DNA of 64,000 nt. It comes from Aureimonas sp. SK2 (GTDB lineage: Bacteria > Pseudomonadota > Alphaproteobacteria > Rhizobiales > Rhizobiaceae). The notes under the pieces are model-generated. The model did no database searches, had not been told where the DNA came from, and was given only the letters and a program-made list of their open reading frames with translations. Shown piece after piece: positions 35,731-49,100 of this stretch. Each line of letters starts with the position of its first letter. Within the stretch, counting starts at the first letter, position 1. The stretch covers positions 186,001 to 250,000 of the forward strand of contig NZ_JAPZDS010000003.1 of NCBI RefSeq assembly GCF_029813115.1. Direction: 5' to 3'. The translations under genes were made by a program, and so were the position numbers.

Positions 35731-36330
35731 ATGCGGCGACTTCTTATCTCCGGCCTCGCGGCCGGATGCATGTCTACCGGGCTGGCCCACGGTGCGGAGA
35801 TCACCGAGCGGACGACCTATTTCATGGTCAAGGGCGCGACCTTCGCCGAAATCGATCGGGCGCTGGGCGTCAGCGGTCCGCTCCTGTCGGGCGGCGAGCG
35901 CCATTCCGGCGCGACCAAGGTGTCGTTTCGCCGGAACCTTGAATTCGCCGAGAAGAAGGGCGGATGCGGGGTCTCGCGAACCAATCTCCGGCTGGATCTG
36001 GTCACGACGCTGCCGCAGTGGAACGCGCCGCGCGGTGCCGACCCCAAGACGCGGACCATGTGGAAGGTGCTGCAACGCTACATCGCCGAGCACGAGGCGC
36101 ATCATTCCAAGATCGCCAAGTCCTGGCTGGAGCGGATGAACCTCGAGCTTCTCGGGCTGCCGCCCGAACGAAGCTGCGCGCAGATGGAGGTCGTGGCCAC
36201 GCGCCGCGCACGGGAGCTGCTTCTCGGCCACGAGAAGGCGCAACGCGAGTTCGACCGGTCGGAAGCGCGCGTCGTGGACGCGCAGCTCGAAAGCAAGCTG
36301 GCCGCGGCCACCCGCCAAGCCGCCCGCTAG
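35731..36330 (+). CDS. Secreted DUF922 protein, predicted zinc protease
   Basis: Encodes 199 residues with a signal peptide ending around GLAHGAE. An HEXXH motif is present at residues 121-125 (HEAHH), fitting the DUF922 predicted secreted zinc protease family. No protease activity is known for this subgroup from the sequence alone. A GTG at 35704 would extend the N-terminus and hide the signal peptide; ATG 35731 is preferred. Confidence 0.78.
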   Translation: MRRLLISGLAAGCMSTGLAHGAEITERTTYFMVKGATFAEIDRALGVSGPLLSGGERHSGATKVSFRRNLEFAEKKGGCGVSRTNLRLDLVTTLPQWNAPRGADPKTRTMWKVLQRYIAEHEAHHSKIAKSWLERMNLELLGLPPERSCAQMEVVATRRARELLLGHEKAQREFDRSEARVVDAQLESKLAAATRQAAR

Positions 36331-36347
36331 CCTCCGGTGCCTGCTGC

Positions 36348-36668
36348 TCACGCCTGGCGCGCGGGCACCGTGAGAACCAGCCCGGCGAGGTCGGGCCGCA
36401 CACGGATCTGGCAGGACAGGCGCGAGTTCGGCCGCACGTCGAGCGCGAAGTCGAGCATGTCCTCCTCCATCGCGTCCATCGGGGCGAGACGCTCGGCATG
36501 GGCTTCGTCCACATAGACGTGGCAGGTGGCGCAGGCGCAGGCTCCGCCGCAGTCGGCGTCGATGCCCGGCACGTCGTTGCGGATGGCGGCCTGCATCACG
36601 CTCGACCCGTCGGGCGCGTCGATGTCGTAGCGGGTGCCGTCTTGGCCGATGAAGGTGATCGCGGTCAT
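36348..36668 (-). CDS. Adrenodoxin-type 2Fe-2S ferredoxin
   Basis: Encodes 106 residues. The cluster ligands are C40, C46, C49 and C86 (C-X5-C-X2-C-X36-C), the adrenodoxin/ISC ferredoxin pattern. Such proteins pass electrons to cytochrome P450s or Fe-S assembly; no partner is adjacent. Both ends are typical of the family. Confidence 0.93.
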
Positions 36669-37179
36669 GCCCGCGGTTAGACCGGCGGCACGCGGCGGTC
36701 AACAGCGCTGCGTCGCGAGCCCGCACGATCCCCTTCGCAAGACTTATCAACAGCCACGTTCTTCGCCGGGAAAGCCGCGCCTCGGCAGCGGTCGGCGTAT
36801 CGGGAAACGGTGCGGCGACGTTAACGCCGTTCGGCGCATCCGGCCGTTTCGCGGTGCCGGACGGCCGTGCTATCAGGGGCTTCGACCCCGCACGCAGAGG
36901 TAAACGTTCGGGCGCGCGCCGCCGTCGTTGAGTCAAGCGGTTCCTACCGGAACATTCCGCATTTCGATTTCGACGTTAACCAAATGTTTAAACTTGTACC
37001 GATGCCCGGAGATTCCGGTTTCCTTCCCGCCCGTCGCTCTCTAATTTGCTGGGATGAGGACGGCTCTCTTCCCCGATGGGGGAGGTGTGCCATGTGCGGA
37101 CGAAGGAACGTGTAGCCTGCATTGCGGCAGCAGGCAGCCCTTCTTCCGATCGAGTAACGAGTACGGGGCGCGGCGGATC
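36669..37179. other. 511-bp leader region of the giant growth-pole gene
   Basis: No gene is supported. The stretch contains the CtrA-like motif (36976-36991) and probably the promoters for the ferredoxin (minus) and the giant gene (plus). A possible in-frame extension of the giant ORF to 37054 has no family support and is Cys/Gly-rich, unlike the protein. Confidence 0.55.
36976..36991 (+). promoter_or_regulatory. CtrA-like motif upstream of the giant gene
   Basis: TTAACCAAATGTTTAA carries two TTAA halves spaced 8 bases apart (the CtrA consensus has 7) and begins TTAACCA, near the TTAACCAT half-site. It is about 190 bases before the gene start. Spacing is off by one, so this is tentative. Confidence 0.4.
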
Positions 37180-40100
37180 ATGTCCAAGATCAAGACGGCT
37201 GAACAGCTTTCGGACGAAGCGGTCAACGAACTGGAGGCGGCCCTTCAGGGCACCGACTTCGACGGCTCCGAGACCGGCGTCTCCGGTGAGGTGCAGGGAC
37301 ATGTCGAGGCGGAGACGCTCCAGCCTTCCGAAATGAACATCGATTTCGCGCTGGACGAGTTCGACCGCTCCGTGGCGGAGGCCACGAGCGCGCTTCGCGA
37401 AGAAGCCGCCGCCGAGCCCGTGGCCGCCCCATCTCCGCTGGCGTCGCCCGAAGAGCTTCCGCCCGAGCCCGAGTTTCAGCTCGCCGAGGAGGAGCTGATC
37501 GCCTCCTTGAGCGAAGCGGACCGCATCGACGCCCCCATGCCCGCCGAGAGCGCTCCGGCCGCCGTGCCGCCTGTCGCAGAAGCGATAGCCGCCGGACGCG
37601 CCAGCGCCGCCGCGTCCGACGCGCGCAGCGCGGCCCAGGAAGCGCCCCCGCTGCGCCGGGAAGCCCCCGCGGCGCCCGAGCCGGCGCGGCCGTCCCGCAC
37701 CCGCGACTTCAAATCCACCGTCGCCAACGACGAGCAGCGCTCCGCCGCCGTGATGGCGGACGCCCTCCTCACGCGCCGCTCCTCCCGCCGCACCCTCGTG
37801 ATCGGCGGCGTCGTGGCCGCGGGCTGGGCGATCCTGGCGGGCGCGGCCTCCTTCGCGTTCCTCGGATCGGGCGCATCGCCCGCTCCCGCCGGGCTGACGC
37901 TCGTTCTCGCGGCGTCGGCCGTGGTGCTGCCTGCCCTTCTGATCTTGGCCTTCGCCGTGATGGTGCGCCGCTCGCAGGATCTTCGCCTGATGAGCCGCTC
38001 GCTCGCCGAGGTTGCGCTGCGTCTCGCAGAGCCCGAGAACATTGCCTCCGAAAAGGTCACCAGTGTCGGCAACGCGATCCGCCGGGAGGTCTCGGCGCTG
38101 GGCGAAGGCGTGGAGCGCGCCCTGTCGCGCATGGGCGAGCTCGAAGGCATCGTTCATTCCGAGGTGTCCTCGCTCGAGCGCGCCTATGCCGACAACGAGG
38201 TCAAGATCCGATCGCTGGTCACCGACCTGTCGAACGAGCGCGAAGCGATGCTCTCGCATGCCGAGCGTCTCCGCTCGTCGGTGGTCGGCTCGCACGATCG
38301 CCTGATCGGCGACGTCGACACGGCCTCGACTCGGATCATCCGCCAGGTCGAGGAAGCGACCCACCGGTTCCACTCGCTGCTCGACGAGCGCGGTGAGTCC
38401 CTGTCGCGCGCCTATGAGGAGCGCAGTCAGGCGCTGACGGCCATGTTCGACAGCCGCAGCCGCGAGATCGAGACCGCGCTCGGCGGGTCCAGCGCCAGCG
38501 TGATCCAGCAGATCGGCGAGACCGCCGAAGCCACCACCCAACGCCTGGCGCAGACCGGCGAAGAATTGGCACGCAGCCTGCGCGCGCAGGCCGAAGAGCT
38601 GCAGGCTCGCTCGGACGAATTGATCCAGCGCGTGTCCGCCATCGGCGATCAGGCCGGCGAGCGCCTGCGCGAATCCAATGAGACCGTCCTGCGAACGCTG
38701 AACGAGCGCACCGAAAGCCTCGCCACGGGTTCGGAGATGTTCGACCGGCGGCTGGCCGAAACGCTGGACGAGCGTTCGGCTCGCATGCTGGCCGAAAACG
38801 AGTCCCTCCTCCTTTCGCTCACCGGCGGCCTCGACCAGAAGCTCGCCCATCTCGCCAGCGAGACCGAGCGGCTGCTCCGGAACCTCGACGAGGCGTTCGA
38901 CCGCCGCATCCAGACCGCGACGGCGCTTCTCGGCGCGCGCAACGAGGACGTTCTCGGCCGGTTCGACGAGCGCCTCGCCCAGCTCGAAGGCGCCCTGTCC
39001 GGCAAGGGTGCGCAGCTCGTCCAGACGATCGAGGGTCAGGCCATGGCCATCGATCGCACGGCCGACCGCTTCGCCGTGTCGCTGTCCGAGACCACGGGCG
39101 CCTTCTCGCGCACCGTCGCCGAGCGCACGGAGGAAATGCGCGGCGCCATCGAGAGCGGGCGCGGCGAGCTCGCGGCGGCCGCCGAGTCCGCCCGCCAGGG
39201 GATTGACGCAAGCTTTGCCTCGCATTCCGAGCACGTGCGGTCGAGCTTCGACGCGCAGATCGGCTCGCTCGGCGCCGTCCTCAGCGATCGCGCGGCCGAT
39301 ATCGACACCTCGCTCGCCTTCGCCCAGCAGACCCTTCTCGCCCAGTTCGAGGAGCGCGGCACCGCGCTGACCCAGACGATCGAAGAAAACGTCGCGCGCA
39401 TGGAGCAGATCATCGGCTCGGCCGAGGGTCGCCTGGTGTCGGGCGTCGACACGCGCGCCGATCGCCTCGAAGCGGCGCTGGCCGAAGCCGATCGCAACGC
39501 GGACGAGCGCTTCGCCTCGCGCCTCGAGCGGATGAACGCCATGCTGGCCGAGCGCGGCTCGGCGATCGAGGTGGCGCTCGACCAGCGCACGCAGGTCCTG
39601 TCCAGCGAGTTCGAGACCCGCCTTCAGGCGATCGACGCCATGCTGGAGCAGCGCACGCAGCGCTTCGTGTCCGAGTTCGACGAGCGCAACGAGACGCTGA
39701 CCGTCGGTCTGTCCGATCGCCTTGCGGCGAGCGAAGCCTTCATGCGTAGCAGCGGCGAGTCGCTTTCCCGGTCGCTGGAGCTCTACACCTCGCGCGTCAG
39801 CGACGAGGTCATCGGCCGCCTCGAGGCCGCGCTGATGACGGGCGACGACCGGCGCCAGGAGTTCCTCGCGAGCCTCGAGACCCGCACGGCGGGCATCGAG
39901 GCGAGCTTCGAGCAGTCGGTCGAGCGCGTGGTGGCCGAACTCGCCGCCCGCGTCCGCGACCTGTCGGCCGCCGTGGACAATTCGCACACCGGCCTCACCG
40001 CCACCCTCGACGAGCGCACCACGCGCTTCGCACGCGACATTGATCAGAACGCCGGAACGGTGCTTTCGGCCGTCGAGAACGCACTGTCGCTTCTGATCCA

Positions 40101-43100
40101 GGGCCTCGACGGCCGTGGTGCCAGCCTGCGCGACGCCGTGGAGAACGCCCGCAGCGCCATTCTCGATGGGCTGGACGAGCGCGTCCTGTCGATGCGCCAG
40201 ATGGTGGACGCGTCCGAAAGCTCGCTGATCGCCGATCTCGACGAGCGCACCGGCCGCATCGCCGCCACGCTGGAAACCGGCAACGCCGCCATCCTCTCGA
40301 CGCTGGAATCGCGCATCGTCGCCCTGCGCGAGGCGCTGGTGGAATCCGACGGTCTCCTCGCGACGGCGATGGACGAGCGCCGCGACAACCTCACCTCCGC
40401 GATCGAGGACGTGGCCGGCTCGCTGGCCGCGACGCTCGGCGACCGCGCCGACGACGTGCGCCGTTCGCTGGAGCTTAGCGCCACCAACGTGACCAACGCG
40501 CTGGAAGCCAAGCGCGAGGAAATCTCCGCGGCTCTGGCCGCCGGCACGGTGAGCCTGGCTGCCGCCGTGGACGAGCGGACGGGCGTGATCTCCGAGAGCC
40601 TTCAGCGCGGTCTCGACAACGTGGAGCGCACGCTTTCGGGCCGCACCACCAAGATCGCCGAAACGCTGCGCGAGGCGATCGTCTCAGCTTCGACGATCAT
40701 GGGCCAGGAAGCCGACCGCGCCCGCGCGGGTCTGGAGAACGAAACACAGAAGATCGCCATCATCATCGGCGAGCTCGGCTCGACGTTCCGCACCTCGTCC
40801 GCCGCCGCGCAGGCGGAGTTCGTGGCCGAGGCCGAGCGCTTCGAGGAGCGCATCCGCGCCGTCACCGTGTCGGTGCAGGAGACCGCCGAGGCGGCCCGCA
40901 ACCAGCTGACCGGCGAGAGCGCGCAGATCGCCGAGGGCATCGCCGCGTCCGCCGAGACGATCCGCCGGATCGGCGAGGAGGCGCAGCAGCGCTTCGCCGC
41001 CGAGGCCCAGTCGCTCGGCCGCCAGGTCGAGGACGTCGCCGGCCGCATGCGGTCCGACGCGGAGGAGCTGCGCGAGGCCCTGGCTCTCGAAGGCGACGCG
41101 TTCACCACCCAGATCGGCGGCGCCTCGCTCGCCATGCGCTCGGAAGCCGAGGCGGCGCGCGAGCGCCTGGCGGAAGTGGCGGGCGAGTTCGCCGGCGGCC
41201 TGGAGGCTATGGCCGAGCGTCTGCGCGATGACGCGGAGACGGCGCGCCGGATCGTCGAAATGCAGGCTACCGCACTGTCCGGCGACATCGAGAGCGCTTC
41301 CGAGCGCCTGCGGGTGATCGGCGACAAGACCCGCGAGCAGTTCGCGGCCGACGCCACGCAGATTCGCGAGGAAGTCGCGGCCGCGGCCGTGGAAGTGCGC
41401 GACCGTTCGGATGTCCTGCGCCGCGAAGTCGCGGAGCAGACCGCCGCCATCGGCACGCAGTTCAGCGAGGCCAGCGCCCGCCTTCGCGAGACCGGCGAGC
41501 TGTCGCGCCGGACTCTTCTGGAGGACGCCGGCCGCATCACGGCAGAAGTGGGCCGGGTCGCCGAGGCGATGCGCGGCGAGACCGATCGCGTCCGCCACCA
41601 GATCGGCGAGACGGTCGGCCAGCTCGTGTCCGAACTGCAGGGCGCGACGGACCGCCTGGAGGCCAGCTCGGGCGACGTGCGCGAGCGGATGTCGAACGAC
41701 GCGGCGCGCCTCGTCGGCGAGATCGATGCCGTCGCGATGTCGATGAACGAGCAGGCGGAGGCCGCGCGCCAGCGCTTCCTGCAGGATGCGGAGGGCTTTG
41801 CCGAGCGCGTTCGCGGCACCGCGACGATCATCCAGGACGAGACCGGCCGCAGCGTCTCGCTGCTCGGCGAGCGGGCCGATGGGTTCGTCGTGGAACTCTC
41901 CGCCCTCGCCGACCGCCTCACCTCTCTGCTCGGCAGCACGTCGGTCGGCCTCAACGACAGCCTGACCCGCTCGGTGGTCGAGCTGCGCGACGAGATCAAC
42001 GGTACCTCGGAGCGCATCCGCGGCGAGATCGTCTCCGTGGCCGGAAGCATCCGCGACGAGACGGCGGCGGTTTCGGGCCAGATCCTGCGCGAGGCCGAAG
42101 AAGCCCGGGCGGCGCTGGCCGGCGAAGGCTCGCAGCTCGTCCACGGCCTGTCGGCCGCGGCCACCGCCTTGCGTGTCGAGGCGGAGCGGGCTCGCGAGCA
42201 GATGTCCGAGGTCAGCGCCGGCTTCACCGCCGACATCGCCGACCGCGTCTCCACCTCCGAGCGCGATCTCGCGACCAGCGCCGATCGCGTGGGCGAACTG
42301 ATGGCCGACCGGGCGCGGTCGCTGTCGCAGCTTCTCTCCGAGCGCAATTCGGAGCTGGCCAACCTCATCGAGACCCGCACACGCCCGATCGTCGAGCGCC
42401 TGTCGGAGACCGGATCGGCTGCCGTGCACGCGCTGGAAGGAACGTCCGAGCAGGTGGCCGAGCGTCTGCGGGCCGAGAACGCGGCGATCGTCTCGGCCTT
42501 CATGCAGCGCACGCAGGAGACCGTCGAGCGGCTCGCACGCTCCGCCGGCGACCTCGTCTCGGCTCTCGACGAGCGATCCGACGACGCGGTGAACCGCGTT
42601 GCGGACGCAAAGGGCCGCCTCGGCCAGGAGATCACCGGTCTCCTCGACCGGCTCGACAACAGCAACGAAACCCTGCGCACGATGCTGGACGACGCCAGCG
42701 GTTCGATCGGCCGCGTTGAGACCTCGCTGGTCGATACGCGCGAGCGTTTCCGCACCGAGGCCATGCGGGTCGAGGACGAAATCTCGTCGTCGTCCGAGCG
42801 GCTGGAGCAGTCGATCGCCCGCATGGACGGCGTCGCGTCGAGCGCGTTCCTGCAGATCGGCGGCCTGACCGACAAGTTCGCCGACCACGGCCGCCTTCTG
42901 TCGGAAGCCGCGCGCCTGCTCGACGAGACGCAGACCAACCTCCAGGCGACCCTGGACGAACGTCACGAGGGCCTGACGCTTCTGGCCGGCACGCTGGCCG
43001 AACGCTCGCAGGACATCTCGACCATGCTTTCCTCCTTCGAGGGCGTGGTGGAGCGGCTGTTCTCGCAGGCCGAGGCCCGTGCGAAGGCCGTGGCCGGCGC

Positions 43101-44199
43101 GGTCTCCGGCGAACTCGGCGCCAGCCTCGGCGAGGCCGAGCAGCAGCTGGAGGAGACCGAGCGCCGGTCGCAGGCCGCCGCCGCCGAGATCCGCGAGGCG
43201 CTGCGCCTCGTGGTCGAGGAAGCGTCGGAGAAGTTCGCGACGGCCACGGGCGAAATGCGCCGCGCGGCCGGCGACATGCGCCGCGAGCTGGAGACCGCCC
43301 GCACGGAAATCCGCCGCGGCGTGTTCGAGCTGCCGGAAGAGACCCGCGAGAGCACGAAGGCCATGCGCCGTGCGGTGACCGACCAGATCCGCGCCCTTCG
43401 CGAGCTGAGCGACATCGTCTCGACCTCGGGTCGCGCGATGGACGTTCGTCGGCCGGTGGCAGACACCCGCGCCGCTCGCCCGGCCGCGCCTCAGGCCTCG
43501 GAGCGTCCGGCCGCTTCTGCGGAGGCGGAACGTCGTCCCGCACCGCTGGTCGGCGGCAATCTCGCCTTCGACCAGCGCGGCAACGCGGACGCCGCCCGGA
43601 TGATCACCTCGCAGCCGATCCAGCCCGCCGCCCCGGCGCAGCCGCAGCGCACCGGCGAGTTCTCGCCGCTGCGTCCGGCGGCACCCCCGGCCCGTCCGGC
43701 CGCGCCGGCAGCCGCTCCGACCGAGGTCGAAGGCGAAGGAGGCTGGGTGTCCGACCTTCTGCGTCGCGCCTCGCAGGACGACGCCGACGAGACGAGCGCC
43801 GCACCGGTCGCCCCGGCGCCGGCCCAGGCCGCCCGTCCCGAGCGCAGCTCCGCCCATGTGGTCGACTCGCTGAATTCGCTGTCGGTGGATATCGCCCGCG
43901 CGATCGACCACAACGTCTCCGTCGAGCTGTGGGACCGCTACCGCAACGGCGAGCGCAACGTCTTCACCCGGCGCCTGTACACGATGAAGGGCCAGCAGAC
44001 GTTCGACGAGATCCGCCGCAAGTACCAGCGAGACGCGGACTTCCGCCATGCGGTGGATCGCTACATCGCGGACTTCGAGTCGCTCCTGCAGGACGCCTCG
44101 CGCCGCGACCCGGACAACACCCGCTCGAAGTCGTATCTGACCTCCGACACGGGCAAGGTCTACACGATGCTGGCCCACGCCTCCGGTCGCTTCGACTGA
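37180..44199 (+). CDS. Giant membrane-anchored polar growth protein, GPR/RgsE-like
   Basis: Encodes 2339 residues. The acidic Pro/Ala-rich N-terminus (1-200) is followed by two membrane helices (about 205-232 and 238-262), then some 1800 residues of amphipathic helix with 'LDERT'-type repeats. From L789 to L1152 the repeats keep an exact 11-residue register (33 units). A conserved C-terminal domain (about 2225-2339) ends in TMLAHASGRFD. Size and architecture match the growth pole ring protein GPR of Agrobacterium and RgsE of Sinorhizobium, which organise unipolar growth. The start at MSKIKTAEQLS has GGCGGA upstream. Confidence 0.85.
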   Translation: MSKIKTAEQLSDEAVNELEAALQGTDFDGSETGVSGEVQGHVEAETLQPSEMNIDFALDEFDRSVAEATSALREEAAAEPVAAPSPLASPEELPPEPEFQLAEEELIASLSEADRIDAPMPAESAPAAVPPVAEAIAAGRASAAASDARSAAQEAPPLRREAPAAPEPARPSRTRDFKSTVANDEQRSAAVMADALLTRRSSRRTLVIGGVVAAGWAILAGAASFAFLGSGASPAPAGLTLVLAASAVVLPALLILAFAVMVRRSQDLRLMSRSLAEVALRLAEPENIASEKVTSVGNAIRREVSALGEGVERALSRMGELEGIVHSEVSSLERAYADNEVKIRSLVTDLSNEREAMLSHAERLRSSVVGSHDRLIGDVDTASTRIIRQVEEATHRFHSLLDERGESLSRAYEERSQALTAMFDSRSREIETALGGSSASVIQQIGETAEATTQRLAQTGEELARSLRAQAEELQARSDELIQRVSAIGDQAGERLRESNETVLRTLNERTESLATGSEMFDRRLAETLDERSARMLAENESLLLSLTGGLDQKLAHLASETERLLRNLDEAFDRRIQTATALLGARNEDVLGRFDERLAQLEGALSGKGAQLVQTIEGQAMAIDRTADRFAVSLSETTGAFSRTVAERTEEMRGAIESGRGELAAAAESARQGIDASFASHSEHVRSSFDAQIGSLGAVLSDRAADIDTSLAFAQQTLLAQFEERGTALTQTIEENVARMEQIIGSAEGRLVSGVDTRADRLEAALAEADRNADERFASRLERMNAMLAERGSAIEVALDQRTQVLSSEFETRLQAIDAMLEQRTQRFVSEFDERNETLTVGLSDRLAASEAFMRSSGESLSRSLELYTSRVSDEVIGRLEAALMTGDDRRQEFLASLETRTAGIEASFEQSVERVVAELAARVRDLSAAVDNSHTGLTATLDERTTRFARDIDQNAGTVLSAVENALSLLIQGLDGRGASLRDAVENARSAILDGLDERVLSMRQMVDASESSLIADLDERTGRIAATLETGNAAILSTLESRIVALREALVESDGLLATAMDERRDNLTSAIEDVAGSLAATLGDRADDVRRSLELSATNVTNALEAKREEISAALAAGTVSLAAAVDERTGVISESLQRGLDNVERTLSGRTTKIAETLREAIVSASTIMGQEADRARAGLENETQKIAIIIGELGSTFRTSSAAAQAEFVAEAERFEERIRAVTVSVQETAEAARNQLTGESAQIAEGIAASAETIRRIGEEAQQRFAAEAQSLGRQVEDVAGRMRSDAEELREALALEGDAFTTQIGGASLAMRSEAEAARERLAEVAGEFAGGLEAMAERLRDDAETARRIVEMQATALSGDIESASERLRVIGDKTREQFAADATQIREEVAAAAVEVRDRSDVLRREVAEQTAAIGTQFSEASARLRETGELSRRTLLEDAGRITAEVGRVAEAMRGETDRVRHQIGETVGQLVSELQGATDRLEASSGDVRERMSNDAARLVGEIDAVAMSMNEQAEAARQRFLQDAEGFAERVRGTATIIQDETGRSVSLLGERADGFVVELSALADRLTSLLGSTSVGLNDSLTRSVVELRDEINGTSERIRGEIVSVAGSIRDETAAVSGQILREAEEARAALAGEGSQLVHGLSAAATALRVEAERAREQMSEVSAGFTADIADRVSTSERDLATSADRVGELMADRARSLSQLLSERNSELANLIETRTRPIVERLSETGSAAVHALEGTSEQVAERLRAENAAIVSAFMQRTQETVERLARSAGDLVSALDERSDDAVNRVADAKGRLGQEITGLLDRLDNSNETLRTMLDDASGSIGRVETSLVDTRERFRTEAMRVEDEISSSSERLEQSIARMDGVASSAFLQIGGLTDKFADHGRLLSEAARLLDETQTNLQATLDERHEGLTLLAGTLAERSQDISTMLSSFEGVVERLFSQAEARAKAVAGAVSGELGASLGEAEQQLEETERRSQAAAAEIREALRLVVEEASEKFATATGEMRRAAGDMRRELETARTEIRRGVFELPEETRESTKAMRRAVTDQIRALRELSDIVSTSGRAMDVRRPVADTRAARPAAPQASERPAASAEAERRPAPLVGGNLAFDQRGNADAARMITSQPIQPAAPAQPQRTGEFSPLRPAAPPARPAAPAAAPTEVEGEGGWVSDLLRRASQDDADETSAAPVAPAPAQAARPERSSAHVVDSLNSLSVDIARAIDHNVSVELWDRYRNGERNVFTRRLYTMKGQQTFDEIRRKYQRDADFRHAVDRYIADFESLLQDASRRDPDNTRSKSYLTSDTGKVYTMLAHASGRFD

Positions 44200-44221
44200 G
44201 GCGAGCACCGACGACATGCAT

Positions 44222-44253
44222 AAGGACGGGGCCGCGAGGCTCCGCCCTTTTCG
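44222..44253 (+). terminator. Terminator T1, copy A, for the giant gene
   Basis: A 12-position stem (44222-44233 with 44238-44249) with one A-C mismatch and one G-T wobble, a GCGA tetraloop (GNRA type) and a TTTTCGTTT tail. It lies 22 bases past the stop codon. Confidence 0.8.
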
Positions 44254-44360
44254 TTTGGGCCCGCGATTCAAGCCGGGCTTCGGCTGGTCACGCCTCGTTC
44301 AAGTCGCAGCAACCCTCGCGGCCGGGCGGAACGAACCACTCGACGCTGGAGGCCGGGCAC

Positions 44361-44384
44361 GAAAAAGCCCGCCGAAGCGGGCTT
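44361..44384 (-). terminator. Terminator T2, copy A, facing the minus strand
   Basis: An 8-bp perfect stem (44365-44372 with 44377-44384), CGAA loop; the minus-strand RNA ends in TTTTTC. Second terminator met by transcripts from the MCE operon. Confidence 0.75.
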
Positions 44385-44419
44385 ACCGTCAGGTCGAGAG
44401 GGGGCATGAGGCGAGTCCG

Positions 44420-44479
44420 ACCTCCGACACGGGCAAGGTCTACACGATGCTGACCCACGCCTCCGGACGCTTCGACTGA
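44420..44479 (+). pseudogene. Duplicated C-terminal fragment of the giant gene
   Basis: Twenty codons including the stop (TSDTGKVYTMLTHASGRFD) repeat the end of the giant protein with one amino-acid change (A to T) and one silent change. It has no start or promoter and should not make a protein. An 87-codon ORF at 44216-44479 reads into it by chance. Confidence 0.85.
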
Positions 44480-44501
44480 GGCAGGCGCCGACAAAATGCA
44501 C

Positions 44502-44533
44502 AAGGGCGGAGCCGCAAGGCTCCACCCTTCTCG
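44502..44533 (+). terminator. Terminator T1, copy B
   Basis: The duplicated hairpin (44502-44513 with 44518-44529) has a GCAA tetraloop. Substitutions repaired the mismatch and the wobble of copy A but made a new C-A mismatch one pair inward, so the stem is kept. Confidence 0.7.
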
Positions 44534-44640
44534 TTTGGGGTAGCGATCGGCGCCGGACTTAGGCCGGTCACACCTCGTTCGGGCCGCCGCAACCCTGGCG
44601 GCAGGGGAGAACGAACCACGCGGCGCTGGAGGCTCGGCAC

Positions 44641-44665
44641 GAAAAAGCCCGCCGAAGCGGGCTTT
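44641..44665 (-). terminator. Terminator T2, copy B, directly after the MCE operon
   Basis: A 9-bp stem (44644-44652 with 44657-44665), CGAA loop, with a T5 tract on the minus strand. It is about 30 bases beyond the lipoprotein stop, hence the primary terminator of that operon. Confidence 0.85.
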
Positions 44666-44693
44666 CCATCAGGGCGAAAGGGGCATGAAGCGG

Positions 44694-45290
44694 TCAGATC
44701 AGGCGGATCATCCAGGCGACGATCTCGTCGGCCACCTGCCCGAAGGCGGCGTCCAGCGACGTGACGTAGCCCGAGGGTTCGCCGTTCGCCACCGGCACGG
44801 CGGCCTGGAAGACGCGCGAGCCGCGAACCACGCCGGTGCGGTCGTTCAGAGCCTTGACTGAAATCTCGACGACGGCGGTGGCGCCCGGCTGGAAGGCGAT
44901 CTCGAAGCGACGAAGCTCGGTGACGACCTGATAGTCGATCGCCAGCCCCTGCCCCGGCACGCCCGCGGCGCCGATGCGCCCGGTGTTCTGGAAGGCCTGG
45001 AGCAAGCGGAGCTGGACGAGGCGCGGAAGACGGTCGCTCCACTGGCTGTTCGCCAGGTTCTCGATCGTCTGTGGGGTGGGCTTCACGACGATACGCTGGC
45101 TGTCGAGCGCCTGCGTGGCCGTCGGCTCCGGCAGGAGGATCTGCGAGCGCGTCGACGCGGCGCCCACGGAAACGGGCTCGGGGGGCGACAGCTCGAACGT
45201 GGCGGGCGGTGTCTTCAGCGTGGAGCAGGACGACAGCGCCACGGCTGCGACCACCAGTCCGGACCATCTTGCCGCAGCGTTTCGTGCCAT
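44694..45290 (-). CDS. ABC-type transport auxiliary lipoprotein (PqiC-like)
   Basis: Encodes 198 residues. The signal ends with the lipobox LSSC (cysteine near residue 21), so it is a lipoprotein. The rest (QILLPEPTATQALDSQRIVV, NSQWSDRLPRLVQLRLLQAFQNTGRIG) matches the ABC auxiliary component family that accompanies MCE systems, located at the outer membrane. Last gene of the four-gene operon. The start at MARNAAARW follows the signal-peptide structure. Confidence 0.88.
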   Translation of the reverse strand: MARNAAARWSGLVVAAVALSSCSTLKTPPATFELSPPEPVSVGAASTRSQILLPEPTATQALDSQRIVVKPTPQTIENLANSQWSDRLPRLVQLRLLQAFQNTGRIGAAGVPGQGLAIDYQVVTELRRFEIAFQPGATAVVEISVKALNDRTGVVRGSRVFQAAVPVANGEPSGYVTSLDAAFGQVADEIVAWMIRLI

Positions 45291-45356
45291 CTCGATCCTC
45301 GACGCATGTACTGGGTGGAAGGCCCAAGCTGGCGCGCTTCCTCCGGGTTTCAAAGG

Positions 45357-45385
45357 CGCGAACCGCCGCGTGCGGGCGGTTCGCG
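45357..45385. terminator. Hairpin between the MCE gene and the lipoprotein gene
   Basis: An 11-bp perfect stem (45357-45367 with 45375-45385) with a 7-base loop and no T run. It could stabilise or attenuate the operon mRNA. Confidence 0.45.
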
Positions 45386-45431
45386 AAGCACTGTTGCCGC
45401 CCCGCCACCGGCGGCGGGCACGGGCCTCCGG

Positions 45432-47099
45432 CTAGCGCCGAACGCGGCCGTCGAACTGCCGGACCTGACCGCCTCCATCGCCGCCGAAGATGACTCGGTT
45501 CGGATTGTTGGCGAGATCGATGATCGCCCTCTCGATCCGCGAAACGGCCTGCGTGGTCTCGCGGATCAGGTTGCGGGCGTCCTGCAGGCCCTGGCCCGTG
45601 AAGTTCTGCAGGTTGGCGGAGATCGGGCCGACCGAGCGCTGGATGGTCTCGGCGGTCTGGCGAATGCTCTGGAGCGTCGCGCGCGCCTCGGCCGTGAGAC
45701 CCTGCCCGTCCGGGCTGTTGACGAGGCCGTTGACCGAGTTGATCAACGTCTGGACCTGATTGGACGCCACCTTCAGCGCCGCGCTCGTGTCTTCGACATT
45801 GGTGATGATGTCGTTGATGTCCTGCCGGCGCGAGTTGATGTTGTCGGCGACGTCGCGAACGCTGTCGGCGGCGGCGGCAATGTTGTTGGTCGCCGAGGAC
45901 ACGTCGTTGACGGCCTGGTTGATGGTCGAGGCGCTGACGGCGGCGAGCAGCGTGTCGATGCGGGCACGGGTTCCGTTCAGCCCTTCCAGCGCGCCGTTCA
46001 GCGTCTGGAGCATCGTGTCGGCGCCGGCCACGACCGAACCGACGCGGCCCGACTGGGCGTTCAGCGCGCCGGTGAAGCCGCTGACGCTGTCGATGGTGGA
46101 GCGCACCTGATCCGGGTTCACGGCAGCGGTGATCTGCGACACGTCGGCGAGCGTCGAATCGAGGCGCGTCGCCACGCTCGATGCGGTTTCGGAGATCGGG
46201 CCGAGCCGCTGGAGGAAGGCTTGGACGCTCGGCAGGTTCTGGCTGATCGTATCGCCGACCGAGCCGAAGCCGGAGACTGCCGTCGATACGGACTCGATCG
46301 CCCGCGTGACGTTGTCGGTCTGTCCGCGTAGCGCCTGCGTGATGGCCGAGACGTTCTGGATCGACTGGTTGACCGCCGCAACGTCGAGCGTGCCGATGAA
46401 GTCGCTGGCGCGGCTCATCAGCGCGGGAAGCTGGAGCGCGACATTGTTGGCACTGCGCGAGAGGTCGGCGAGGCTGGCCAGGAAGTCGTCGATCTGGTCG
46501 GCGTTGGCGGCGAGGCTGTCGGTGAAGGTGCGCACGTTGGTCGATGTCTGCGCCACGTTGTCGGCCGTGGTGCGGACGGCCGGGCCAACGGCCTGTACGA
46601 GCTGCTCGAACTCGCCGAGAATGTTGTTGGCACGGTCGGCGATGTCCTTCGCCGTCGCCAGAATGTCGGTCACGTCGGACGGGTTGGCGGTGATCACGGG
46701 CGTCGCGCCCTGCTCCAGCGCCGACTGGATGATCCTGCGATCGTTGACGTTGCCGCCGGTCAGCCCGATGAATCCGATACCCGTGAGGCCCTGAAAGCCG
46801 ATCGTGGCCGTGGTCGAAGTGGTGATCGGCGTCTCGCGGTCGACCTGCGTCGTGGCGATCACGACGCGCGGGTTGTTCGGGTCGATGCGCAGGTTCGTCA
46901 CGGTACCGACCGCCAGGCCGTTGAACAGGACCTGGCTGCCCTGGCTGAGGCCGGAGACGGACCCTTCGATGCGCACGAGAAGCGTGACGCGGGAATCGCG
47001 GTCGGAAACGTTCGCCGACCAGTAGACGAAGCCGAAGCTTGCCAGGAGCACCACGACGGTGAAGACACCGACGAGGATGTAGTTGGCTCTGGTTTCCAT
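45432..47099 (-). CDS. MCE-domain lipid transport protein (MlaD-like)
   Basis: Encodes 555 residues. One N-terminal membrane helix (YILVGVFTVVVLLASFGFVYW) anchors it in the inner membrane. The MCE domain follows (VTLLVRIEGSVSGLSQGSQVLFNGLAVGTV). The remaining 400 residues are helical, rich in Asn, Asp, Ser, Thr and Ala (for example DNVAQTSTNVRTFTDSLAANADQIDDF), long enough to bridge part of the periplasm. The ATG overlaps the ATPase stop (TGATG). Confidence 0.92.
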   Translation of the reverse strand: METRANYILVGVFTVVVLLASFGFVYWSANVSDRDSRVTLLVRIEGSVSGLSQGSQVLFNGLAVGTVTNLRIDPNNPRVVIATTQVDRETPITTSTTATIGFQGLTGIGFIGLTGGNVNDRRIIQSALEQGATPVITANPSDVTDILATAKDIADRANNILGEFEQLVQAVGPAVRTTADNVAQTSTNVRTFTDSLAANADQIDDFLASLADLSRSANNVALQLPALMSRASDFIGTLDVAAVNQSIQNVSAITQALRGQTDNVTRAIESVSTAVSGFGSVGDTISQNLPSVQAFLQRLGPISETASSVATRLDSTLADVSQITAAVNPDQVRSTIDSVSGFTGALNAQSGRVGSVVAGADTMLQTLNGALEGLNGTRARIDTLLAAVSASTINQAVNDVSSATNNIAAAADSVRDVADNINSRRQDINDIITNVEDTSAALKVASNQVQTLINSVNGLVNSPDGQGLTAEARATLQSIRQTAETIQRSVGPISANLQNFTGQGLQDARNLIRETTQAVSRIERAIIDLANNPNRVIFGGDGGGQVRQFDGRVRR

Positions 47100-47929
47100 C
47101 ACTCGTTCCCGCTGAAATACGGATTCTCGTCCTTGGGCACGACGGTGCGCGCCCGCTTGCCGTGGAAGTACGAGCGAACCCAGTCGTCGTCGAAATCCAG
47201 CATGGTCTGGAGCGGCCCTTCCACGAGGACCTTCTTCTTGCCGAGCACGGCGATCCGGTCGCAGGCCATGAAGAGGCTGTCGAGGTCGTGGGTCACCATG
47301 TAGACGGTCAGGCCCAGCGTGTCGCGCAGCGTCATGATCAGCTCGTCGAAGTCGGCCGCGCCGATCGGGTCGAGGCCGGACGTCGGCTCGTCGAGGAAGA
47401 CGATGTCGGGGTCGAGCGCCAGGGCGCGGGCCAGAGCCGCGCGCTTGATCATGCCGCCCGACAGTTCGGACGGATACTTGTCGGCCGCATCGGCCGCGAG
47501 GCCGACGAGGTCGATCTTCAGCCGCGCCATCTCGTCCATGAGCTTGGGCGAGACGTCGAGATACTCGCGCATCGGCACCTGGATGTTCTCGAGCACCGTG
47601 AGTGAGGAGAACAGTGCGCCCTGCTGAAACAAGACTCCCCAGCGCTGCTCGACGCTGAGCCGGGCGGCCTCGTCGGCGCGCTCGTAGTCGACGCCGAACA
47701 CCTCGATCGTGCCGCCCTGCTTGGCGTTCAGCCCCAGGATCGTGCGCAGAAGCACGGACTTGCCGGTGCCCGACGCGCCGACGAAACCGAGGATCTCGCC
47801 GCGGCGCACGTCGAGCGAGAGGCCGTCCAGGATCGTCTTCGAGCCGAAGCGCACGGTCACGTCCGTGGCGCGGATGATGACGTCGTCGTCCTTCGGGCGG
47901 GCTTGGGTGTCAGTATCCGATGGCGGCAT
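47099..47929 (-). CDS. ABC transporter ATPase of the MCE system (MlaF-like)
   Basis: Encodes 276 residues. Walker A is GASGTGKSV, the signature LSGGMIKRAALARALAL, Walker B IVFLDEPTSGLDP. The pattern 'GGMIKRAALARA' is typical of MlaF/Mkl ATPases. It energises lipid movement through the MCE protein. Starts at 47950 or 47929 both overlap the permease gene; 47929 is used. Confidence 0.93.
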   Translation of the reverse strand: MPPSDTDTQARPKDDDVIIRATDVTVRFGSKTILDGLSLDVRRGEILGFVGASGTGKSVLLRTILGLNAKQGGTIEVFGVDYERADEAARLSVEQRWGVLFQQGALFSSLTVLENIQVPMREYLDVSPKLMDEMARLKIDLVGLAADAADKYPSELSGGMIKRAALARALALDPDIVFLDEPTSGLDPIGAADFDELIMTLRDTLGLTVYMVTHDLDSLFMACDRIAVLGKKKVLVEGPLQTMLDFDDDWVRSYFHGKRARTVVPKDENPYFSGNE

Positions 47930-49100
47930 AGAAGATCGCGAAAACGGCATCCATGAGGATGACCAGGAAGATGGACTTGACGACCGACGCGGTGACGTGG
48001 CGCCCGAGGCTCTCGGCGCTGCCGCCGACCTTGAGGCCCTCCATCGAAGCGACGACGCCGATGACGATGGCCATGAACGGCGCCTTGATCAGGCCGGCGA
48101 AGACGGTCCCGATGTCGATGGCGCTGCGCAGCCGCGTGATGAAGGCGTCGGGCGTGATGCCGGAATAAACCCAGGTCACGGCGATCGCGCCGAGGAGGCC
48201 GGTGATGTCGGCGATGAAGGCGAGCAGCGGCAGGACGATGGTCAGCGCGACGATGCGCGGGAAGACCAGGACGCCGATCGGGTTGAGGCCGATGACCTGG
48301 AGCGCGTCGACCTCCTCGCGCATGCGCATCGAGCCGATCTCGGCGGTGATGGCGCTGCCCGAGCGGCCGGCGATCATGATGGCGGTGAGAAGGACGCCGA
48401 TCTCGCGCAACTGAAGGATGCCGACGAGATCGACCACGAAAATTTCGGCGCCGAAGTTGCGGAGCTGAAAGGCGCCCTGCTGCGCGATGACCGCGCCGAT
48501 CAGGAAGCTCATCAGCGCGATGATGGGCACGGCTCGCACGCCCATGCGGTCCATCTGGCTGACGATCGCGGCGGGCCGCCAGCGCTGCTTGCCGGTGATG
48601 CGGCGGCCGGCGCCGTAGAGCGAGGCGCCGACGACGTTGAGACCCATCATCGTCTCGCGGCCGGCGGCGAAGACGTTGGCACCGATCGCGGCGAAGAAGT
48701 CCCCGACGGCCGACGTGTCCTTGGACTTCGGCTCGGGCCGGGGCGTGTCCAGCGCCTTGCGCACGGCCTCGAACAGCGCGCCGTCCGACGCGCCGACGCC
48801 CTCGGAGCGGACGTCGGCCCCCTTCTCGGACAGGCTTCGCTGGAGGCGCTCGACAATGAGCGCGCCGGACGTGTCGAGACGCCCGACGTCCGACAGGTCG
48901 AAGGTGACGGACTTTCCGAGATCGGCCTTGCGGGTCTCCTCGACCACGCCTTCCACGCTGCCGATGGTGCGGGCCAGCCAGTCGCCGCCGAAGTGGAGAA
49001 CGACGCCGCCCTTGCCCTTCTCCGCCTCGAGCGAAGGCGGAGCGCCTTCGGGACGCCCGTCCTTCTTCGGAGCCCTTTCGGGTTGCGGAGTATCCAGCAT
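47910..49100 (-). CDS. MlaE-family permease with N-terminal STAS domain
   Basis: Encodes 396 residues. The first 120 form a STAS-like domain (VVLHFGGDWLARTIGSVE, VTFDLSDVGRLDTSGALIVERL), normally the separate MlaB protein. The rest is the MlaE permease with five or so helices (IIALMSFLIGAVIAQQGAFQLR, VGILQLREIGVLLTAIMIAGRSGSAITAEIGSM). It heads the operon permease-ATPase-MCE-lipoprotein, probably for phospholipid transport between membranes. Confidence 0.94.
   Translation of the reverse strand: MLDTPQPERAPKKDGRPEGAPPSLEAEKGKGGVVLHFGGDWLARTIGSVEGVVEETRKADLGKSVTFDLSDVGRLDTSGALIVERLQRSLSEKGADVRSEGVGASDGALFEAVRKALDTPRPEPKSKDTSAVGDFFAAIGANVFAAGRETMMGLNVVGASLYGAGRRITGKQRWRPAAIVSQMDRMGVRAVPIIALMSFLIGAVIAQQGAFQLRNFGAEIFVVDLVGILQLREIGVLLTAIMIAGRSGSAITAEIGSMRMREEVDALQVIGLNPIGVLVFPRIVALTIVLPLLAFIADITGLLGAIAVTWVYSGITPDAFITRLRSAIDIGTVFAGLIKAPFMAIVIGVVASMEGLKVGGSAESLGRHVTASVVKSIFLVILMDAVFAIFYAAIGY

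Follow-up and report, generated by a model that had tools for sequence, protein, structure and literature searches.

The 3′ end of a giant gene and the two opposed terminators behind it are present twice in the window, a stretch of 64,000 nucleotides on contig NZ_JAPZDS010000003.1 of Aureimonas sp. SK2. The two copies form tandem direct units at 44140-44417 and 44420-44696, which are offset by 280 bases and approximately 84% identical. Each unit contains the last 19 codons and the stop codon of the giant gene, followed by the gene's terminator (T1) and by that of an opposing Mla-type operon (T2; Table 1). This duplication is a real but ordinary lineage-specific structural variant. We tentatively prefer the reading, to which we give a little less than an even chance, that it is a tandem duplication scar without a function of its own and that its two units probably diverged before they were joined, by capture of an allele of the type known as homology-facilitated illegitimate recombination (HFIR).

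Table 1. Features of the duplicated gene end and its flanking genes (positions in the window)
Feature	Position	Strand	Remarks
Giant gene	37054..44199	+	2381 amino acids counted from its first ATG; many stretches of Apolipoprotein (PF01442); resembles GPR/RgsE
Coding tail, copy 1	44140..44199	+	19 codons and stop; the gene's own end
T1 copy 1 (outer)	44222..44249	+	Terminator hairpin; GCGA loop; one A.C mismatch; last TT of the stem runs into TTCGTTT
T2 copy 1 (inner)	44364..44385	-	Terminator hairpin; TTCG loop; stem of 8 pairs against 9 in copy 2
Junction between copies	44415..44422		GA (2 nt) identical at the join; all three contexts read TCNGA
Coding tail, copy 2 (orphan)	44420..44479	+	58/60 identical; out of frame; Ala to Thr
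T1 copy 2 (inner)	44502..44529	+	GCAA loop; one C.A mismatch; interrupted U-run (TTCTCGTTT)
T2 copy 2 (outer)	44644..44665	-	9-pair stem; met first by the transcript from the lipoprotein side
ABC-type transport auxiliary lipoprotein gene (PF03886)	44694..45353	-	Last gene of the MlaE/ATPase/MlaD-type operon

The initial annotation of this DNA had described a 280-bp tandem duplication in which each marker is offset by 280 bases, and both an offset scan and Tandem Repeats Finder upheld this description. The identity at offset 280 was 83% over 274 bases, whereas the other eight offsets from 276 to 284 gave 24-32%. Tandem Repeats Finder reported 44139-44692 with a period of 280, 2.0 copies, 84% matches, 0% indels and a score of 812; this pair was the sole array with a period of at least 60 bases in 284 kb of the contig, the window included. 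The gene end is indeed present twice, but the duplicated coding part is 19 codons plus the stop codon and not 20 codons, as had been stated. A recount gave the same two differences in the 60 bases of the tails, beside 4 in the 28 bases of T1 and 2 in the 27 bases of T2 with its edges. In the gapped alignment, copy 1 could be traced to about 44417, just short of the position equivalent to the stop codon of the lipoprotein gene; counted without gaps to 44412, the last 24 bases of the unit hold nine differences. The GA at the join is common to both parent sequences.

The host genome is a draft (4.56 Mb, 89 contigs, 0.11% estimated contamination), and a draft in this many contigs leaves room for an assembly artefact such as a chimera of two strains. 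However, the copies are 16% apart, which simple assembly stutter does not yield, the locus is present once in this genome of low estimated contamination, and about 66 kb of sequence separate the site from the nearer end of its 296-kb contig. We consider an artefact highly improbable.

Several other explanations of the unit were tried and rejected. The unit does not belong to a dispersed repeat family, since a search of the host genome with the 563-base unit pair gave a single matching place. A small RNA was sought in the unit and the best scores were far below the Rfam gathering scores (rsmX 23.5 versus 56, isrB 22.4 versus 35 and ar35 18.2 versus 45 bits). A hidden gene was also rejected, the 38 differences beyond the tail being distributed 13, 8 and 17 by phase with no frame outstanding by eye.

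Self-comparison of the 284 kb revealed three further local direct repeats (in L139, L140 and L144). The repeat in L144 (16347-16551) consists of two tandem tRNA-Asp (GTC) genes, 83 bases identical and 128 apart. Those in L139 (2389-3359; 401 nt at 75%) and L140 (2460-3814; 335 nt at 66%) are older local direct repeats and are perhaps neighbouring paralogues.

A domain profile search found PF01442 in the giant protein with an E-value of 8.5e-50 and 11 stretches. A very long protein with many such stretches in a Rhizobiales species is what is expected of the GPR/RgsE family, and the nearest named relatives of the window belong to Aureimonas. Two N-terminal transmembrane segments are also expected of the family; two hydrophobic stretches can be read by eye in the translation. 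By its length and domain content, and likened by description, the giant gene appears to resemble that for GPR, the growth pole ring protein of Rhizobiales, the Sinorhizobium homologue of which is RgsE (available excerpt of PMC8262873). The giant gene and the Mla-type operon are convergent, with the MlaD, ATPase and MlaE genes behind the lipoprotein gene. Within the flanks compared, 77 of the 99 distinct junctions have the lipoprotein gene downstream of the giant gene.

The duplicated tail brought to our notice the nearly invariant C-terminal end of GPR-like proteins. The motif SDTGKVYTMLAHA-x-G, encoded at 44143-44187, is identical in 99/99 GPR-like gene ends except that x is S, A or G. The Pfam and NCBIfam matches do not extend to it in their best stretches.

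The distribution of the duplication was surveyed in 138 loci, with one genome per species and with the named relatives being the best 80 of 562 candidates; the gene end was matched in 135 loci. Removal of loci with identical last 200 bases left 99 distinct junctions, the window included, one of which has fewer than 600 bases downstream. A second match of the gene end was found only in the three loci of the window itself among the 135, that is, in one of the 99 distinct junctions, and was absent from the other 98. All 20 congeners match at the gene end and none of the 20 has a second tail. Thus, the duplication is derived, and the unit is single-copy in the sampled relatives.

Integration of a mobile element at the 3′ end of a gene leaves a repeated gene tail with a terminator, and a scar of an element that replaced the tail of the giant gene would fit the repeated tail and terminator seen here. 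However, only 220 bases (T1, T2 and the DNA between them) separate the two tails, with no cargo or integrase. Moreover, the repeat spans the whole intergenic unit rather than an attachment core, and within the flank examined a second tail is found in none of the other junctions among the 99. Such a scar is extremely improbable.

Direct repeats of any kind behind the giant gene were sought in a region reaching from 300 bases upstream of the gene end to 1500 bases downstream of it (E up to 1e-5) and were found in 4 of the 99 junctions, namely the window, L095, L104 and L111; those of the latter three do not contain a second tail. The repeats of L111 (a Mesorhizobium MAG; 216 nt at 83%) and L095 (Pseudaminobacter; 77 nt at 99%) are unrelated to the unit of the window and, on reading, look like dispersed intergenic repeats. 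Separately, in L024 (A. altamirensis) and L093 (a congener), approximately 1 kb separates T1 from the lipoprotein gene and includes a minus-strand open frame of 311 residues. This frame reads like an NAD-binding dehydrogenase, as we presume from its motif, and a gene has possibly been inserted at the junction in both loci.

The evidence for the terminators themselves comes mainly from the genus. The hairpin energies of copies 1 and 2, respectively, were -18.0 and -20.7 in the case of T1 and -14.2 and -14.6 in that of T2. By themselves, the hairpins were only moderately better than shuffles over the two strands (z from -1.1 to -2.9). A consensus terminator scan of 36000-48000 returned 7 terminator-like sites where 5.8 were expected. 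Among them were T1 copy 1 on the plus strand and T1 copy 2, the latter on the minus strand only, but neither copy of T2. With a home-made finder of terminator-like hairpins, 64 of 77 junctions have at least one such hairpin on the plus strand and 63 of 77 have at least one on the minus strand. We take T1 and T2 as real mainly because hairpins occupy the same two places, immediately after the giant gene and immediately ahead of the lipoprotein stop codon, in congeners (both in 10/18). Thus, T1 and T2 are common at this junction in the genus and the copy number is the unusual part.

The two copies of each hairpin have not aged in the same way. The loops of the T1 copies are GCGA and GCAA, as the initial annotation had read them. 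It had also noted that the stems exchange one mismatch for another: the A.C of copy 1 is indeed replaced in copy 2 by C.A, one pair further in. However, comparison with the hairpin of A. flava, our only reference here, indicates a separate decay in each copy and not compensation. Relative to A. flava, the outer T1 gained the A.C mismatch and a G.U pair, the inner T1 gained the C.A mismatch, with loss of a stem pair, and an interrupted U-run, and the inner T2 lost one stem pair. The T2 copy that a transcript meets first is better preserved than the other, whereas the T1 copy met first surpasses its partner in the U-run but not in the stem. We infer that the outer hairpins (T1 copy 1 and T2 copy 2) terminate and that the inner pair is redundant and decaying, although the outer T1 is also mismatched and the inner T1 is the stronger by energy (-20.7 versus -18.0). 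The wear of the hairpins is nearer, though not strongly so, to the prediction of redundancy than to that of a selected double insulation.

Such insulation had been suggested in the initial annotation, and the second terminator pair might have been selected to insulate a growth-pole gene from the opposing lipid-transport operon. Convergent transcripts would meet up to four hairpins, T2 is nearly identical between the copies, and very slight overexpression of GPR in Agrobacterium gives multiple growth poles (available excerpt of PMC8262873). However, the second tail unit is missing from 20/20 congeners, the inner T1 combines a mismatch with a broken U-run, and the inner T2 has lost a pair. Furthermore, A. 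flava has the same T2 stem and loop, so that the sameness of T2 needs no selection specific to the duplication. We regard insulation as very unlikely, and a function for the duplication is not supported.

Copy 2 of the coding tail is one frame off, since 280 is not a multiple of 3, and lies behind the gene's own stop codon; at the residue that is Ala in 99/99 gene ends, it has Thr. For these three reasons, copy 2 is very probably untranslated, as judged from the reading frame and the conserved residue. Because the function of Agrobacterium GPR depends on its last 10 residues (available excerpt of PMC8262873), an Ala-to-Thr change in a working copy would be surprising. The change, together with the worn inner hairpins, shows that some time has elapsed as an orphan and a duplicate.

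The age and the origin of the pair were approached through the unequal divergence of its parts. The tails differ at 2 of 60 bases and the non-coding remainder at 38 of 204 (Fisher p = 0.002); the 204 bases were counted to 44403, short of the gaps that occur towards the unit's end. The absence of indels was set aside as a sign of constraint, given that orthologous pairs likewise show few gaps. If copy 2 had been free since an in-place duplication, 8.0-9.5 tail differences would be expected by calculation, with a probability of 0.004-0.014 for two or fewer; if both tails had been constrained throughout, 3.1-3.7 would be expected, with a probability of 0.28-0.39. Counting copy 2 alone, with copy 1 held unchanged, gave P = 0.05. 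The safe statement is that the tails are more alike than free drift predicts.

Orthologous junctions were used as yardsticks, and these were noisy and mixed. Filters on length and gaps kept 8 orthologous pairs. L116/L129, L119/L131, L093/L024 and L093/L023 were excluded on account of long "intergenic" reading frames in L093, L024, L116 and L119, the members inspected. The remaining four, which are Mesorhizobium pairs that share members, have intergenic identities of 81-86% and 1, 2, 1 and 3 tail differences. Of the 40 pairs listed under a looser filter, 27 lie at 81-88% identity, and at least 8 tail differences were counted in 13 of them; all 13 involve L106, L108 or L109 and most are many-gapped. 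One pair of the looser list has 43 tail differences, probably from misplaced ends. Measured at 4-fold sites, 62 of the 64 pairs with a divergence below 0.3 have at least 5 tail differences; among the rows listed, each pair has 18-33 such sites, and these GC-rich sites are probably near saturation. By this yardstick, 2/60 would be low even for two orthologues and would point to conversion.

The two main readings of the origin differ in when the units diverged. In the alternative reading, which we rate only slightly below capture, the lineage duplicated its own unit in tandem long ago, the non-coding DNA drifted, the tails were converted or stayed unchanged by chance, and the pair is passive. 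A donor is not needed, the longest identical runs between the copies are 33 bases in the tail and 29 in T2, the 4-fold yardstick fits, and one non-synonymous change, which is what one of the two tail differences is, would be expected if there had been only drift since a recent conversion. On the other hand, the tail is poorly explained without conversion (P 0.004-0.06, depending on the assumptions), a permutation test gave no significance to the longest run (p 0.12), and the age of the duplication would be about equal to the split between close species.

Capture of an allele is favoured because two tails under constraint account for 2/60 better than a copy 2 that drifted freely. Because both tails look protein-constrained for most of the divergence time of the flanking DNA, the units seem to have diverged before they met. 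A single illegitimate join, with some 2 nt in common, would have set the second unit (tail, T1 and T2) beside the first, between it and the lipoprotein stop codon. Less certainly, the incoming unit may have been the allele of a close relative, brought in by homology on one side and the illegitimate join on the other. The 2 nt at the join, against the 3-10 bp usual in HFIR, count against capture. A donor was not found: in the six nearest relatives, the matches cover the tail-T1 end and the T2 end but not the DNA between. In 300-base windows against ten relatives there was no switch of identity at the junction, A. flava being first or tied in 5/9 windows on the gene side and 7/8 on the lipoprotein side; a donor nearer than A. 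flava would escape this comparison. Working alleles that had diverged before they met, or conversion of the tails, would each give a low tail divergence. The earlier proposal that the pair is kept by gene conversion or by selection for insulation is thus retained in its first part, since 2/60 against 38/204 keeps conversion a live explanation, as is capture.

A further possibility combines conversion with use: the duplicated tail would be kept as a recombination partner, with conversion repairing or varying the nearly invariant C-terminus while the second terminators add insulation. We think this highly unlikely. If it were true, the low divergence of the tails would reflect repeated conversion and not chance or a recent capture.

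The importance of the duplication beyond the host genome is little. It is a clean example of a gene end doubled with its terminators at a convergent junction, in which a coding stretch can be used as a clock against non-coding DNA. A literature search of limited wording, covering titles and the starts of abstracts, did not find the same case.

Partial tandem duplications of the 3′ ends of genes arise by illegitimate recombination at microhomology. The present case is like these in its adjacent direct repeat, its short shared join and its truncated gene fragment, but it differs in that the copies are already 16% apart and the coding part is far less diverged. HFIR usually uses 3-10 bp of shared sequence, and its products generally carry an accompanying deletion (available excerpt of PMC3240628). 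An event of this type could bring in a diverged unit next to the resident copy, joined by homology at one end and illegitimately at the other; in contrast to the HFIR described in that excerpt, the join here is 2 nt and the donor was not found in the relatives compared. Finally, the junction is like that of an ordinary convergent pair in which each side has its own terminator, T1 for the giant gene and T2 for the lipoprotein gene, as in 10/18 congeners, except that here the unit is doubled.
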